A stretch of 64,000 nt of DNA, taken from NCBI RefSeq assembly GCF_024168645.1, contig NZ_JALJWF010000001.1, positions 558,001-622,000 on the forward strand, in the 5' to 3' direction. The translations under genes were made by a program, and so were the position numbers. The notes under the pieces were generated by a model that did no database searches, was not told where the DNA came from, and was given only the letters and a program-made list of their open reading frames with translations. Shown in pieces: positions 25,499-29,676 of this stretch. Each line of letters opens with the position of its first letter. Within the stretch, counting starts at the first letter, position 1. Source of the stretch: Pseudomonas sp. GGS8. Its GTDB lineage: Bacteria > Pseudomonadota > Gammaproteobacteria > Pseudomonadales > Pseudomonadaceae.

Positions 25499-27805
25499 AT
25501 GTCAGTGAATACGCTGCTTGCGCGGACTAATCGTCGTATTCTCATCGTCGACGACACTGCATCGATCCATGAGGATTTCGCCAAGATTCTCAGTCCGTCA
25601 TCAATCGAAGACGACAGTCTGGCCAGCGCTGAAAACGCCCTGTTCGGGACCTCGGTGACGGTATCGTCGCAAGGTTTTGTCATCGAATCCGCGTTTCAGG
25701 GCCGCGAAGCGCTGGACAAGGTCGAGACCGCACTGGCGAATGACTCACCCTACGCGATGGCCTTCATCGACATGCGCATGCCGCCGGGCTGGGACGGCCT
25801 GGAAACCATCGAACGCCTGTGGCAGGTCGATCCCAAGCTGCAAGTGGCGCTCTGCACCGCGTATTCCGACTATTCCTGGGAAGACATCGACGAGCGCCTG
25901 GAACTGGGCGATCGCCTGCTGATCCTGAAAAAACCCTTCGATGCCATCGAAATCCGCCAGATGGCCAGTGCATTGACCGCCAAATGGCAAATGACCGAAG
26001 ACGCGGCGCTGAAGATGTCCCTGCTGGAGCAAGCGGTCGAGGAGCGCACCCGGGAGCTTTCCGACGCCAACATCATCGTGCAGAACAGCCCGACCATTTT
26101 GTATCGGCTGCGGGGCGAACCGTCGTTTCCGTTGATGTATATCTCCCACAACATCACCAAATACGGCCACATCGCGGCGGCCCTGGTGGCTTCGTCCAAC
26201 TGGGCTCAAGAGCTGATTCATCCCGACGATCAAGAAAAAGTCGACACGGCCATGGCGCGAGTGCTGGACCGCCATGCAGCCGGTGCTTCCATCGAGTTCC
26301 GAATGCGCACCGGCGACGGTGACTGGCGCTGGGTCGAGAACCGCTACATCCCGGTGCGCGACGATGAAGGCCGCTTGCTGGAAGTCGAAGGCATCATCAT
26401 CGACATCACCGAACGCAAACTGGCCGAGGAAAAGATCGCCCTGCTGGCCCGCACCGACGGGCTGACCGGGCTGGCCAACCGCGCGACGCTGATCGAGCGC
26501 CTGCATCAGGCGTTCGCCGCCGCCCGGCGAGGGGCCACCCCGTTCGCCATGTTTTACCTGGACCTGGATCACTTCAAACGTATCAACGACACCCTGGGCC
26601 ACCCGGTGGGTGACCTGTTGTTGCAGGAGGTCGCTCGACGGATCAAAACCTGCGTGCGGGAAAACGACGTGGTCGCCCGCCTGGGGGGCGACGAGTTCGC
26701 GATACTGCAACTGGACGTCGGCGACCCGACCCAATCAGCAGCCCTGGCCGCCAAGGTCCGCGATGCGCTGGTGCTGCCCTACTCCCTGGCCGGCAATGAT
26801 GTGCGGGTCTCGGTCAGCATCGGCATCAGCAGCTACGCCCAGGTCAGCCTCAGCGCCGACAGTCTGTTGACCCAGGCGGACATGGCACTGTATCGCTCCA
26901 AGGAAAAGGGCCGCAACCAGTACCACTTCCACTCCGAGGAAATCAATCAGGAAGTGGTCGAGCGCATGACCATCGCCAACGACTTGAGAACGGCCATCGA
27001 ACGCGACGAACTCGAATTGCGTTACTGGCCGGAAGTAGACCTGAGCAGTGGCAGGATCCTCGGCATGGAAGCGCAGGTCAGTTGGAACCACCCCATACGC
27101 GGTTTACTGGAAGCCCCCGCATTTCTGCCCGCGGCGGAAAAGACCGGCATCATCATCTCCCTCGGTCACTGGGTGCTGGAGCGCGCCTGTCGGCAAATGC
27201 GCCAGTGGCGCGACGAAGGCATGGCGCCACCGGTGGTGGCGATAAAACTGTCGCTGGCCCAGCTCAAGAGTGGTCCCGAGTTGATCTATGACGTGTTACG
27301 CACCACCGCCCGCTGGGAACTGTGCCCGTGGGACCTGCGTTTCGACGTCACCGAAGCGACCCTGGCCCAGACCAAGTGGACGCACAACGATATCCTGCCA
27401 CGCCTACGTGAGCTGGGGGTGAAGATCGCCATCGATGACTTCGGCACCGAATACTCTTCGTTCGACTACCTCAAGACTTACCAGGTCAATCATCTGAAAC
27501 TCGCTCAGGCGTTCATCGACACCGCCGCCCACGACGCGGCCAGTGCCACCACCTTGCGGGCCATTATCAATTTCGCCCGCGAGGTCGGGATCGGCATCAT
27601 CGCCGAAGGTGTCGAAACCCAGGAGCAACGCACTTCGCTGATGGCCACCGGCTCTCCGATGAATGCCCAGGGCTACTACTTCAGCCAAGCGGTCAGCAGC
27701 CAGCAGGCCGCCGAACTGTTGAAGGCCGGGAGCATCGTGCACGCGAACCACAATCCCGGAGCACTACCGGACGATTCGCGGCGCACCACGGAGGACAAGA
27801 AATGA
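25499..27805 (+). CDS. Response regulator REC-PAS-GGDEF-EAL; GGDEF intact, EAL degenerate
   Basis: A 768-residue predicted diguanylate cyclase under phosphorelay control. The receiver (about 10-180) has IVDDTASIHED, Asp in FIDMRMPPGWDG and Lys in ILKKPFD. A PAS fold (about 200-310) ends WRWVENRYIPVRDDEGRLLE. The GGDEF domain has DLDHFKRINDTLGH, GGDEF at 396-400 and an I-site RxxD (REND) just before it, so it looks active and product-inhibited. The EAL domain is eroded: EAL is EAQ (Glu524), the HYQP Gln is Trp (YWPEV), the metal-binding Asn of NVS is Lys583 (IKLS) and KID is KLA. DDFG and AEGVE remain. I chose the ATG at 25499; a start at 25325 would add a non-homologous leader. It overlaps the next gene by 4 bp. 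Confidence 0.92.
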   Translation: MSVNTLLARTNRRILIVDDTASIHEDFAKILSPSSIEDDSLASAENALFGTSVTVSSQGFVIESAFQGREALDKVETALANDSPYAMAFIDMRMPPGWDGLETIERLWQVDPKLQVALCTAYSDYSWEDIDERLELGDRLLILKKPFDAIEIRQMASALTAKWQMTEDAALKMSLLEQAVEERTRELSDANIIVQNSPTILYRLRGEPSFPLMYISHNITKYGHIAAALVASSNWAQELIHPDDQEKVDTAMARVLDRHAAGASIEFRMRTGDGDWRWVENRYIPVRDDEGRLLEVEGIIIDITERKLAEEKIALLARTDGLTGLANRATLIERLHQAFAAARRGATPFAMFYLDLDHFKRINDTLGHPVGDLLLQEVARRIKTCVRENDVVARLGGDEFAILQLDVGDPTQSAALAAKVRDALVLPYSLAGNDVRVSVSIGISSYAQVSLSADSLLTQADMALYRSKEKGRNQYHFHSEEINQEVVERMTIANDLRTAIERDELELRYWPEVDLSSGRILGMEAQVSWNHPIRGLLEAPAFLPAAEKTGIIISLGHWVLERACRQMRQWRDEGMAPPVVAIKLSLAQLKSGPELIYDVLRTTARWELCPWDLRFDVTEATLAQTKWTHNDILPRLRELGVKIAIDDFGTEYSSFDYLKTYQVNHLKLAQAFIDTAAHDAASATTLRAIINFAREVGIGIIAEGVETQEQRTSLMATGSPMNAQGYYFSQAVSSQQAAELLKAGSIVHANHNPGALPDDSRRTTEDKK

Positions 27806-29676
27806 AAACTCCGTTCATCCAGGCCAACCGACGCATTCTGATCATCGACGACACGCCCTCCATCCATGAGGACTTTCGCAAGATCCTGGGCGCCGATAGC
27901 GACGATGAACTAACCCTCGCCGGCACTGAGGCCGTGCTGTTCGACACCCCGCAGCCAACCCGGCTGGTCTTCCAGCTCGACTCCGCCTATCAAGGCCAGG
28001 AAGCGCTCAAACTGGTCAAGCGTGCCCAGGCAGAAGGTCGCCCTTACGCCATGGCGTTCACCGACATGCGCATGCCCCCGGGCTGGGACGGGCTGGAAAC
28101 CATCGAACGGCTCTGGAAAGTCGACCCTAACCTGCAAATCGCGCTGTGCACGGCTTTCTCGGATTACACCTGGGAAGCCATGGCCGAACGGCTGGAATTC
28201 GGCGATCAGTTGCTGGTATTGAAAAAACCCTTCGACAGTCTGGAAATCCGCCAGATGGCCAGCGCCCTGACCTGGAAGTGGCAGATGGCGCAGGACGCGG
28301 CGATGAAAGTGCTGAGTCTGGAGCAAACCATCGAAGCCCGGGTCCACGAACTGCTCAAGGTGTCTCATCTGTTGCAGTACGACGTGTTGACCGAGTTGCC
28401 CAACAGCACCTTGCTGGGTGACCGGCTGAACCAGTCCCTGGCCTTGTCCAGACGCCATGACAAACAACTGGCGGTGATGTTTCTGGGGCTCGATCGCTTC
28501 AAGCGCATCAACAATGCGTTGGGTCACCCGACCGGTGACGAGATGCTCAAACGTGTCGGACGAAGCCTGGTGGCCTGCGTACGCGCCTCCGATTCGGTGT
28601 TTCGCTACGGCTCCGACGAGTTTGTAGTGATTCTGGCCGACATCCACCACCCCCAACAGACCAAGGGCATCGCCGAAAAACTCTTGAACGCCATACGTGC
28701 GCCCCAGCACGTCGCCGGACACGACCTGAGCGTGACGGCCAGCTTGGGCATCAGCATCTATCCCGATGACGGTTTCGATGCCATCGCACTGATCAAGAAA
28801 GCCGAAACCGCGATGCGCAACGTCAAGGAAAGCGGCCCCAACGATTTCAGCTTTTTCATCGATGAGATGAACCAACGCGCACGGGAACAGCAGACCATCG
28901 AGTCGGGGATTCGCCAGGCACTGGAGCGGAACGAGTTTGTCCTGCACTACCAACCGAAACTCGACCTGGGCACCGGCAAGGTGGTTGGCGCCGAGGCGTT
29001 GATCCGCTGGCAAAAACCGGGGCAAGGCTGGATCTACCCGACAGACTTCATCGGTGTGGCCGAAGACAGCGGCTTGATCGTGCCGTTGAGCAAATGGGTA
29101 CTGGCCCAGGCCTGTCGACAAGCCCGTACCTGGCAGGCGAATGGCCTGCCGAATCTGTGCATGTCGGTGAACGTGTCGGCCATCGATTTCCGTCAGCGGG
29201 ATTTTGTCGATGTCATTGAACAGATACTCCAGCAAACCGGCATGGACCCCGCCTTGCTGGAGCTGGAAATCACCGAAGGCGTATTGATGCAGAACGTCGA
29301 TAGCACGATGGTCGCGCTGAGTCGGCTCAAGGCTTTGGGAGTACGGCTGGCCATCGACGACTTCGGCACCGGCTATTCCAGCCTGAGTTACTTGCAACGG
29401 TTTCCCATCGATGTACTGAAAATCGACCAGTCGTTCATTCGTGGCCTGGGTCGTGACAGCAATGACGCGGCCCTGGTCAGCGCCATCATCAGCCTGGGTA
29501 AAAGCCTCAATCTGACGGTCATTGCAGAAGGGGTGGAAACCCTCGAACAACTGGATTTTCTCAAGGCCCTCCATTGCGAGGAAGGCCAGGGTTACTACTT
29601 CAGCAAAGCCGTGGAGCCGGACGCCTTCGTGCAATACCTGACATCCGTAAAGCCCACCTCCCCCACAGCCAAATGA
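27802..29676 (+). CDS. Response regulator REC-GGDEF-EAL; GGDEF degenerate, EAL intact
   Basis: A 624-residue predicted c-di-GMP phosphodiesterase with the same receiver type as its neighbours (IIDDTPSIHED, FTDMRMPPGWDG, VLKKPFD). It lacks the PAS domain of the upstream protein. The GGDEF domain is impaired: the first metal Asp is Gly229 (FLGLDRFK), IND is INN and GGDEF is GSDEF (270-274), though an I-site RxxD (RASD) remains. The EAL domain has every expected motif: HYQP, EAL (Glu398)-IRW, SVNVS, ELEITE, DDFGTGYSS, KIDQSF and AEGVE. ATGA overlap with the upstream gene implies co-translation. It is the functional mirror of that protein. Confidence 0.93.
   Translation: MKTPFIQANRRILIIDDTPSIHEDFRKILGADSDDELTLAGTEAVLFDTPQPTRLVFQLDSAYQGQEALKLVKRAQAEGRPYAMAFTDMRMPPGWDGLETIERLWKVDPNLQIALCTAFSDYTWEAMAERLEFGDQLLVLKKPFDSLEIRQMASALTWKWQMAQDAAMKVLSLEQTIEARVHELLKVSHLLQYDVLTELPNSTLLGDRLNQSLALSRRHDKQLAVMFLGLDRFKRINNALGHPTGDEMLKRVGRSLVACVRASDSVFRYGSDEFVVILADIHHPQQTKGIAEKLLNAIRAPQHVAGHDLSVTASLGISIYPDDGFDAIALIKKAETAMRNVKESGPNDFSFFIDEMNQRAREQQTIESGIRQALERNEFVLHYQPKLDLGTGKVVGAEALIRWQKPGQGWIYPTDFIGVAEDSGLIVPLSKWVLAQACRQARTWQANGLPNLCMSVNVSAIDFRQRDFVDVIEQILQQTGMDPALLELEITEGVLMQNVDSTMVALSRLKALGVRLAIDDFGTGYSSLSYLQRFPIDVLKIDQSFIRGLGRDSNDAALVSAIISLGKSLNLTVIAEGVETLEQLDFLKALHCEEGQGYYFSKAVEPDAFVQYLTSVKPTSPTAK

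Follow-up and report, generated by a model that had tools for sequence, protein, structure and literature searches.

Operons that join a maker and a breaker of cyclic di-GMP (c-di-GMP) are already known. In the cdg operons of Komagataeibacter (Acetobacter) xylinus, pdeA and dgc encode an adjacent GGDEF-EAL phosphodiesterase and cyclase (PMC6559022), and in at least one of the cyclases the EAL domain is inactive through a degenerate loop 6 (PMC10333796). The Escherichia coli genes dgcO and pdeO (dosC and dosP) are operon-mates for a cyclase and a phosphodiesterase, the products of which form a functional complex in vitro (PMC8846402). Evolved GGDEF domains can bind GTP and activate a downstream EAL domain, and for inactive EAL domains the ExLxR motif is described as determinative for c-di-GMP binding (both PMC10333796). 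A pair of the same general kind is found in Pseudomonas sp. GGS8, in a window of 64,000 nucleotides (the whole stretch of DNA that was analysed, positions 558,001 to 622,000 of contig NZ_JALJWF010000001.1) from a genome of 6.7 Mb in one contig. The two genes, P1 and P2, overlap and encode GGDEF-EAL response regulators in which opposite halves have kept their catalytic motifs.

A first-pass annotation, made from the letters of the window, had read the pair as a duplicated bifunctional gene partitioned into a phosphorylation-controlled make/break pair, and as a whole that interpretation is partly supported. The reading preferred here, with a probability of about 0.72, is that the operon encodes a kinase-controlled two-component c-di-GMP module with divided labour, P2 being the putative core phosphodiesterase and P1 an optional cyclase. 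The parts of the pair are as follows.

25499..27805, forward strand: P1, the first GGDEF-EAL protein of the pair, a REC-PAS_3-GGDEF-EAL response regulator of 768 amino acids (Pfam), with an active-type GGDEF and a motif-broken EAL domain
25520..26008, forward strand: P1 receiver domain, residues 8-170, with D18, D19, D91, T120 and K145 conserved
26450..26920, forward strand: P1 GGDEF domain, residues 318-474, with motif and I-site residues in 109/109 distinct orthologues
26978..27688, forward strand: P1 EAL domain, residues 494-730, a pseudo-phosphodiesterase by motif, with ExLxR lost
27802..27805, forward strand: ATGA overlap of the P1 stop and the P2 start, 4 bases
27802..29676, forward strand: P2, the second GGDEF-EAL protein, a REC-GGDEF-EAL response regulator of 624 amino acids (Pfam), with a pseudo-GGDEF and an active-type EAL domain
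28375..28842, forward strand: P2 GGDEF domain, residues 192-347, with G229 at the first metal Asp and the I-site kept
28909..29607, forward strand: P2 EAL domain, residues 370-602, motif-complete

Catalytic motifs in P1 and P2

Motif positions were placed by sequence alignment to the solved GGDEF-EAL proteins 5m3c (PA0575) and 4rnh (MorA); the catalytic and pocket roles of the aligned residues are in part those that we take them to have. The P1 GGDEF domain is complete, with DLD at 355-357, GGDEF at 396-400 and an I-site at R387/D390. In its EAL domain, EAQ stands for EAL, K583 for Asn, W510 for Gln, FDVTE for (L/F)E(I/L)TE, DFGTE for DFGTG in loop 6 and KLA for KID, whereby D616 replaces the first Glu of ELTE, E651 the loop-6 Gly and A669 the Asp of KID. 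P2 shows the reverse. G229 occupies the place of the first metal Asp and the signature reads GSDEF, with Asn237 kept and the I-site (R261/D264) intact, while in the EAL domain every residue checked is present (EAL Glu, Asn, ELTE Glu, DD, KID Lys/Asp, EGVE Glu, QGY Gln). Judged by motif, the opposite intactness of the two proteins is real and confirmed. The first-pass list of P1 changes (EAQ, Lys583, KLA, Gln to Trp) was right, and the alignment to solved domains that it called for puts the changes at known motif positions; its coordinates, starts and 4-bp overlap needed no correction. For P2, its Asp to Gly229, GSDEF and full EAL domain stand, but INN cannot be counted as disabling with Asn237 kept, and the intact P2 I-site is an addition made here. 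An AlphaFold2 model of P1 has a modest mean pLDDT of 68 and only its GGDEF and EAL parts were used; the EAL part matches solved EAL domains with a TM-score to target of 0.80-0.88 (among the EAL-only matches listed), which suggests that the EAL fold is kept.

How general is this arrangement? Orthologues were surveyed in 249 Pseudomonas genomes, with at least 68% identity for P1. P1 was found in 62 genomes (63 loci; G005 has two, and the copy in G029 matches in pieces) and P2 in 85; 57 genomes have both, five P1 only, 28 P2 only and 159 neither. Sixty-two P1 loci besides the window's own were fetched for reading. P1 has its GGDEF intact and its EAL broken at 63/63 loci of this genus sample, the EAL domain being broken also at the six loci without an adjacent P2, and P2 has its GGDEF broken and its EAL intact at 57/57 paired loci. 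A further 79 named P2 loci, 60 with P1 adjacent and 19 without, have Gly for the metal Asp in 79/79 and an intact EAL as far as the sequence extends, L198 and L200 being truncated; one paired P2 among them reads GGDEF yet has Gly at the metal Asp. Opposite intactness of adjacent genes is hence seen in 57/57 genus-sample pairs and in the 60 named pairs, with the P2 of L200 truncated in EAL. At 29 more P2 loci that lack P1 (from 27 of the 28 P2-only genomes, with second copies in G092 and G233; G206, with a partial P2 on a short contig, was left out), the pattern is again a broken GGDEF with an intact EAL, in 29/29.

Merging identical rows left 109 distinct P1s and 140 distinct P2s (165 to 140, including the dropped L200). 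These sets, and the 116 paired loci used below, combine the genus sample with the named loci, the same strains being partly in both; L205 (Undibacterium, no matching receiver) was dropped from the P2 set, and the receiver cross-hits L074, L093, L095, L096 and L098 from residue scoring. Core positions agree in 109/109 P1s (616, 651, 669) and 140/140 P2s (229), so that the changed residues are not scattered at random among orthologues, the outcome that would have undone the first-pass view. P1 has the residues expected of an active cyclase (metal Asp, RxGG(D/E)EF, RxxD) in 100% of the 109, and P2 has the complete residue set expected of an active phosphodiesterase at the 57, 29 and 79 loci above, wherever its sequence is present. 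As a candidate cyclase P2 fails on G229 (140/140) and on its second Gly (271), which is S or A in 139/140. As a candidate phosphodiesterase P1 fails on the KID Asp, the loop-6 Gly and the first ELTE Glu (each 0/109) and keeps the Asn in 16/109. The pocket Arg was treated with caution: in P1 (472) it is invariant yet was not counted as defining, as it varies in six of the eight outgroup proteins considered below, and its replacement in P2, mostly by Pro (120/140), is weak evidence, since Arg varies in 6/8 of these motif-intact proteins. By motif, then, the division of labour that the first-pass annotation had proposed holds in every orthologue examined.

The genome has 24 other EAL proteins, 18 of them scorable for both domains (L119 and L121, scored rows without a real GGDEF, were left out of the 18): nine keep both motif sets, five only EAL, two only GGDEF (one residue lost in each) and two neither. 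An order-wide search for P1 in 390 genomes returned only its own genome, G083 and one distant match, G464 (L101/L237). Phylum-wide, 124 of 398 genomes match, mostly over the PAS-GGDEF-EAL part alone. Second copies occur elsewhere, of P1 without P2 in G005 (L074) and of P2 without P1 in strains 36C6, SWRI79 and CC269 and in G092 and G233 (L187, L190, L198, L265 and L266). The G029 locus (L100) has a rearranged P1, a two-piece match that omits the PAS region, beside a full-length P2.

Loss and origin of the two genes

Do P1 and P2 depend on each other? The idea that they always occur together was tried and rejected, as 28/85 P2-bearing genomes lack P1 and its presence changes repeatedly on the P2 tree. 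In that tree (140 rows, L200 left out) P1 lies beside P2 in 97 and is absent in 43, and its distribution needs nine changes, at least seven of them forced by supported branches. Several P1-less P2s nest inside the clade of this genome, which argues for repeated loss of P1. P2 absence needs three changes on the P1 tree, with 5/62 P1-bearing genomes lacking P2. The pair is not obligate, as P2 occurs without P1, and with a GGDEF that is still broken in the 27 such genomes fetched. A restored catalytic motif in one partner after loss of the other was found at none of the loci read; the same domain is broken at all fetched loci without a partner, and mutual dependence of the two genes is not borne out.

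These observations bear on the first-pass scenario when it is taken as a reciprocal partition, in which duplication of a bifunctional REC-GGDEF-EAL gene was followed by the loss of a different activity from each copy, leaving a switch that needs both. The scenario gains from the origin of the receivers by duplication, from the existence of REC-PAS-GGDEF-EAL relatives with both motif sets and from the occurrence of P1 with P2 in 57/62 P1-bearing genomes. It sits poorly with the P1-less genomes, with a P2 GGDEF that is broken also in the P1-less loci of the genus sample and in 19/19 named loci without adjacent P1 (some of them second copies), and with GGDEF-EAL parts that resemble other paralogues at least as much as one another; we consider it rather unlikely.

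The receivers tell a simpler story than the outputs. P1 and P2 receivers are 62% identical (that of the REC-histidine kinase in the same operon is 55% identical to P1 and 53% to P2) and form one clade with support 100/97; by sequence they are clearly a duplication, and both are of one subtype, as the first-pass annotation had said. The phosphorylation site is kept, as D91 in 108/109 P1s and D88 in 140/140 P2s, which together with the kinases of the operon supports its claim of phosphorylation control. The P1 and P2 outputs are only 41% identical in GGDEF and 38% in EAL, compared with 39-46% in GGDEF, 34-38% to the P1 EAL and 49-51% to the P2 EAL for the five best paralogues that the genome contains. 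The best trees of the GGDEF-EAL parts do not join P1 and P2 (the bootstrap of the first tree had not settled), and approximately unbiased (AU) tests reject none of the groupings (P1+P2, p 0.19 and 0.36; P1+outgroups, 0.30; all three, 0.19). Trees thus neither show nor reject a P1+P2 clade for these parts. Duplication is clear for the receivers alone, and for the outputs a common origin by duplication may or may not hold.

Could two separately specialized GGDEF-EAL modules have been fused to copies of one operon-specific receiver, with common kinase contacts and gene conversion then preserving the likeness of these copies? Such domain shuffling would account for the fall in identity from receiver to output and for paralogues that are equally close or closer. 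Two genomes fit well: L089 and L092 each combine 84-85% identity between the P1 and P2 receivers with 34-42% between the outputs of the same genome, and in the receiver tree the P1 and P2 of L089 pair together, a pattern that suggests gene conversion. Weighing against shuffling, the domains of P1 and P2 come in the order seen in their bifunctional relatives, loss of catalysis can inflate the divergence between the two proteins, and a common origin is not rejected by the AU tests. Shuffling is a tenable alternative that we would place somewhat below an even chance.

Outside Pseudomonas, the receiver subtype is found on REC-(PAS-)GGDEF-EAL proteins in eight examined loci (L227-L229, L231, L232, L234, L236 and L237). 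Eleven regions with receiver matches, including L237, were followed further and the G714 and G845 matches left out; L230_1 and L236_2, GGDEF-EAL open reading frames without this receiver, are outside the eight. Both core motif sets are kept in seven of the eight proteins, L234 deviating, and relatives that are bifunctional by motif, like the gene that the first-pass annotation had postulated, do exist elsewhere. Six of the eight adjoin a kinase, and its match to the DAHL kinase of the operon lies in the kinase part and not in DAHL. The subtype also occurs with another output, GGDEF plus HD-GYP-type domains, in P0029 (48% identical receiver; domains from the precomputed Pfam list).

Constraint and ligand motifs in the inactive halves

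Over 26 non-overlapping genome pairs (L100 left out), the ratio of non-synonymous to synonymous change (dN/dS), summed, is 0.113 for P1 EAL, 0.104 for P1 GGDEF, 0.112 for P2 GGDEF and 0.114 for P2 EAL; none of four sign tests over these pairs is significant (p 0.17 to 0.56). Free drift of the broken domains is rejected, as their dN/dS equals that of the active halves. Because constraint on the inactive halves matches that on their active counterparts, at about 0.11, the P1 EAL and P2 GGDEF domains are retained pseudo-domains, not decaying ones. The P1 EAL pocket does not differ in conservation from the rest of the domain in a permutation test (p 0.55; 16 positions, two of which, 615 and 618, neighbour the intended 616 and 619). 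The first-pass suggestion that the inactive halves still do something is borne out by selection that acts on them no less strongly than on their active counterparts. Its word 'decay' does not fit the P2 GGDEF, where the changed positions are nearly fixed, and suits only part of the P1 EAL ligand pocket.

What might these halves do? In the P2 GGDEF, N237, D246 and K342, which we take to be pocket residues, are invariant among the 140 distinct P2s, as is D264, and R261 is present in 139/140; the RxxD motif of PelD/PopA-type non-catalytic GGDEF domains is thereby retained. All five other dead-GGDEF/live-EAL proteins scored in the genome lack it. With the I-site motif and several pocket residues kept and the first metal Asp lost, the dead P2 GGDEF is most likely an allosteric nucleotide sensor, as predicted from its motifs, acting on its own EAL domain.

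The P1 EAL exists in two states: 15/109 distinct P1s have ExLxR and the Asn, 93 have neither, and L074 has the Asn only. ExLxR is missing in 94/109, the window's P1 (EAQVS, K583) among them, and the split is one change on a P1 tree built without EAL columns (SH-aLRT 97). Since ExLxR is lost, binding of c-di-GMP by the EAL domain of the window's P1 would not be expected. Might P1 nonetheless be a c-di-GMP-regulated scaffold rather than an enzyme partner, its pseudo-EAL a receptor of the FimX/LapD kind? The 15 P1s in which the ligand motif outlives a motif-dead catalytic site would suit such a role, but the loss of the motif in the large majority by a single change, and a GGDEF that is motif-intact in all 109, make it improbable.

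A more elaborate proposal, for which we claim little confidence, joins the two halves. The P2 pseudo-GGDEF would be dedicated to sensing c-di-GMP, by way of its nearly invariant RxxD, or else GTP, and would thereby gate the phosphodiesterase of the same protein. With the paired receivers keeping the co-translated cyclase P1 close, the c-di-GMP that P1 makes would switch on its own breakdown, and a single kinase would set off a local pulse that limits itself. The dead P1 EAL, for its part, would have changed in one step from a scaffold able to bind c-di-GMP to one that is not, in the lineage to which this genome belongs.

The operon and described systems

The pair is the start of a longer operon, beside a divergent regulator.

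29702..30679, forward strand: CCP_MauG-type di-haem cytochrome c peroxidase, same operon
30658..32487, forward strand: DAHL-domain histidine kinase, likely start ATG 30676, the proposed cognate kinase
32484..33890, forward strand: REC-histidine kinase, with the receiver subtype of P1 and P2
23881..25239, reverse strand: REC-HD_5 regulator with YN replacing HD (YN-GYP type), divergent, the usual neighbour of the operon

The order YN-GYP / P1-P2-peroxidase-DAHL kinase-REC kinase is seen in 52/62 fetched P1 loci (within the stretch read) and the peroxidase gene in 58/62. ATGA is kept in 105/116 paired loci, which bears out the close coupling implied by the first-pass description of co-translated twins. 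Nearest named relatives at the locus are Pseudomonas, including GM18, GM50, P. frederiksbergensis, P. farris, P. lini and P. mandelii. The YN-GYP neighbour is a third c-di-GMP-type domain at the locus without full motif residues, with YN in 139/147 aligned rows and HN in eight; for the YN-GYP protein PA2572 of Pseudomonas aeruginosa, c-di-GMP-degrading activity was not detectable (PMC3411652). No paper that treats the DAHL domain together with histidine kinases was found in the literature searched, and no paper on the P1-P2 operon was recognized among the matches listed. The excerpts of PMC5792552 and PMC9600634 do not show it, and the PF08 biofilm genes in that of PMC12175535 were judged not to be this pair, as the motifs differ.

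In the preferred reading of a kinase-controlled module, one signal would reach both receivers through the histidine kinase or kinases of the operon, which would phosphorylate two receivers of one subtype. P1 would act purely as a diguanylate cyclase, with its I-site setting a limit, and P2 purely as a phosphodiesterase, its EAL modulated allosterically by the nucleotide-sensing pseudo-GGDEF; the P1 EAL and P2 GGDEF are both under constraint as retained pseudo-domains, with roles that may be regulatory. P2 is probably the core output of the operon and P1 an accessory repeatedly lost. The receivers would stem from duplication, and the GGDEF-EAL parts may or may not have come along. A redox signal from the periplasm may be among the inputs, to judge by the peroxidase gene. 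Three observations weigh against this reading. Glu703 of P1, the presumed catalytic base, is kept in 103/109 distinct P1s, so that residual EAL activity is conceivable; over about 1,400 overlapping pairs the P1 EAL is slightly less constrained than the P1 GGDEF (median dN/dS 0.191 vs 0.158); and in a wider sample of 43 other distinct proteins, only two of them dead-GGDEF/live-EAL, one of these two has RxxD, which could then be inherited structure in P2.

What is new here, to a moderate degree, is the clean series of evolutionary states, together with a specific hypothesis of a sensor. The series is a natural one for specialization of c-di-GMP proteins: both motif sets are intact in outgroups, two neighbours in Pseudomonas each have a different half inactive, some operons have lost the cyclase, on several occasions, and the ligand motif of the dead EAL disappeared in a single step. 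Normal purifying selection on these conserved 'degenerate' domains also means that a bifunctional annotation of such GGDEF-EAL proteins is misleading, and their dead halves are candidates as sensors.

By analogy, the P1/P2 operon is of a kind already known from the cdg and dgcO-pdeO operons, here with receiver control. Like the cdg operons it has an adjacent GGDEF-EAL pair with opposite roles, by motif, and the P1 EAL is also altered in its loop-6 motif (DFGTE). It shares with dgcO-pdeO the presence of a cyclase and a phosphodiesterase gene, again by motif, in one operon, and DosP is among the solved relatives of both the P2 sequence and the P1 model. To our knowledge, DosC has no EAL domain, a difference from P1. 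PdeO senses oxygen by haem (PMC8846402) and pdeA precedes dgc in the cdg operons and the N-termini resemble oxygen-sensing proteins (PMC6559022), whereas P1 and P2 have twin receivers and their operon carries kinases and a cytochrome c peroxidase, the latter two being differences from the cdg operons. With its motif-dead GGDEF and motif-complete EAL, P2 resembles GGDEF-EAL phosphodiesterases with a regulatory pseudo-GGDEF, but differs from the five others scored in the genome in keeping RxxD, as does one of the two in the wider sample. A dead GGDEF with RxxD retained also recalls the PelD/PopA-type receptors (PMC10333796), binding by P2 being a prediction; unlike these, P2 has a motif-complete EAL as well. 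Also close in architecture are the kinase plus single REC-PAS-GGDEF-EAL systems in other members of the taxonomic class to which Pseudomonas belongs (L227, L228, L229, L231 and L232), which share the receiver subtype, the PAS and the GGDEF-EAL order and have an adjacent kinase resembling the kinase part of the DAHL kinase, but in which, unlike P1/P2, one gene holds both core motif sets intact.

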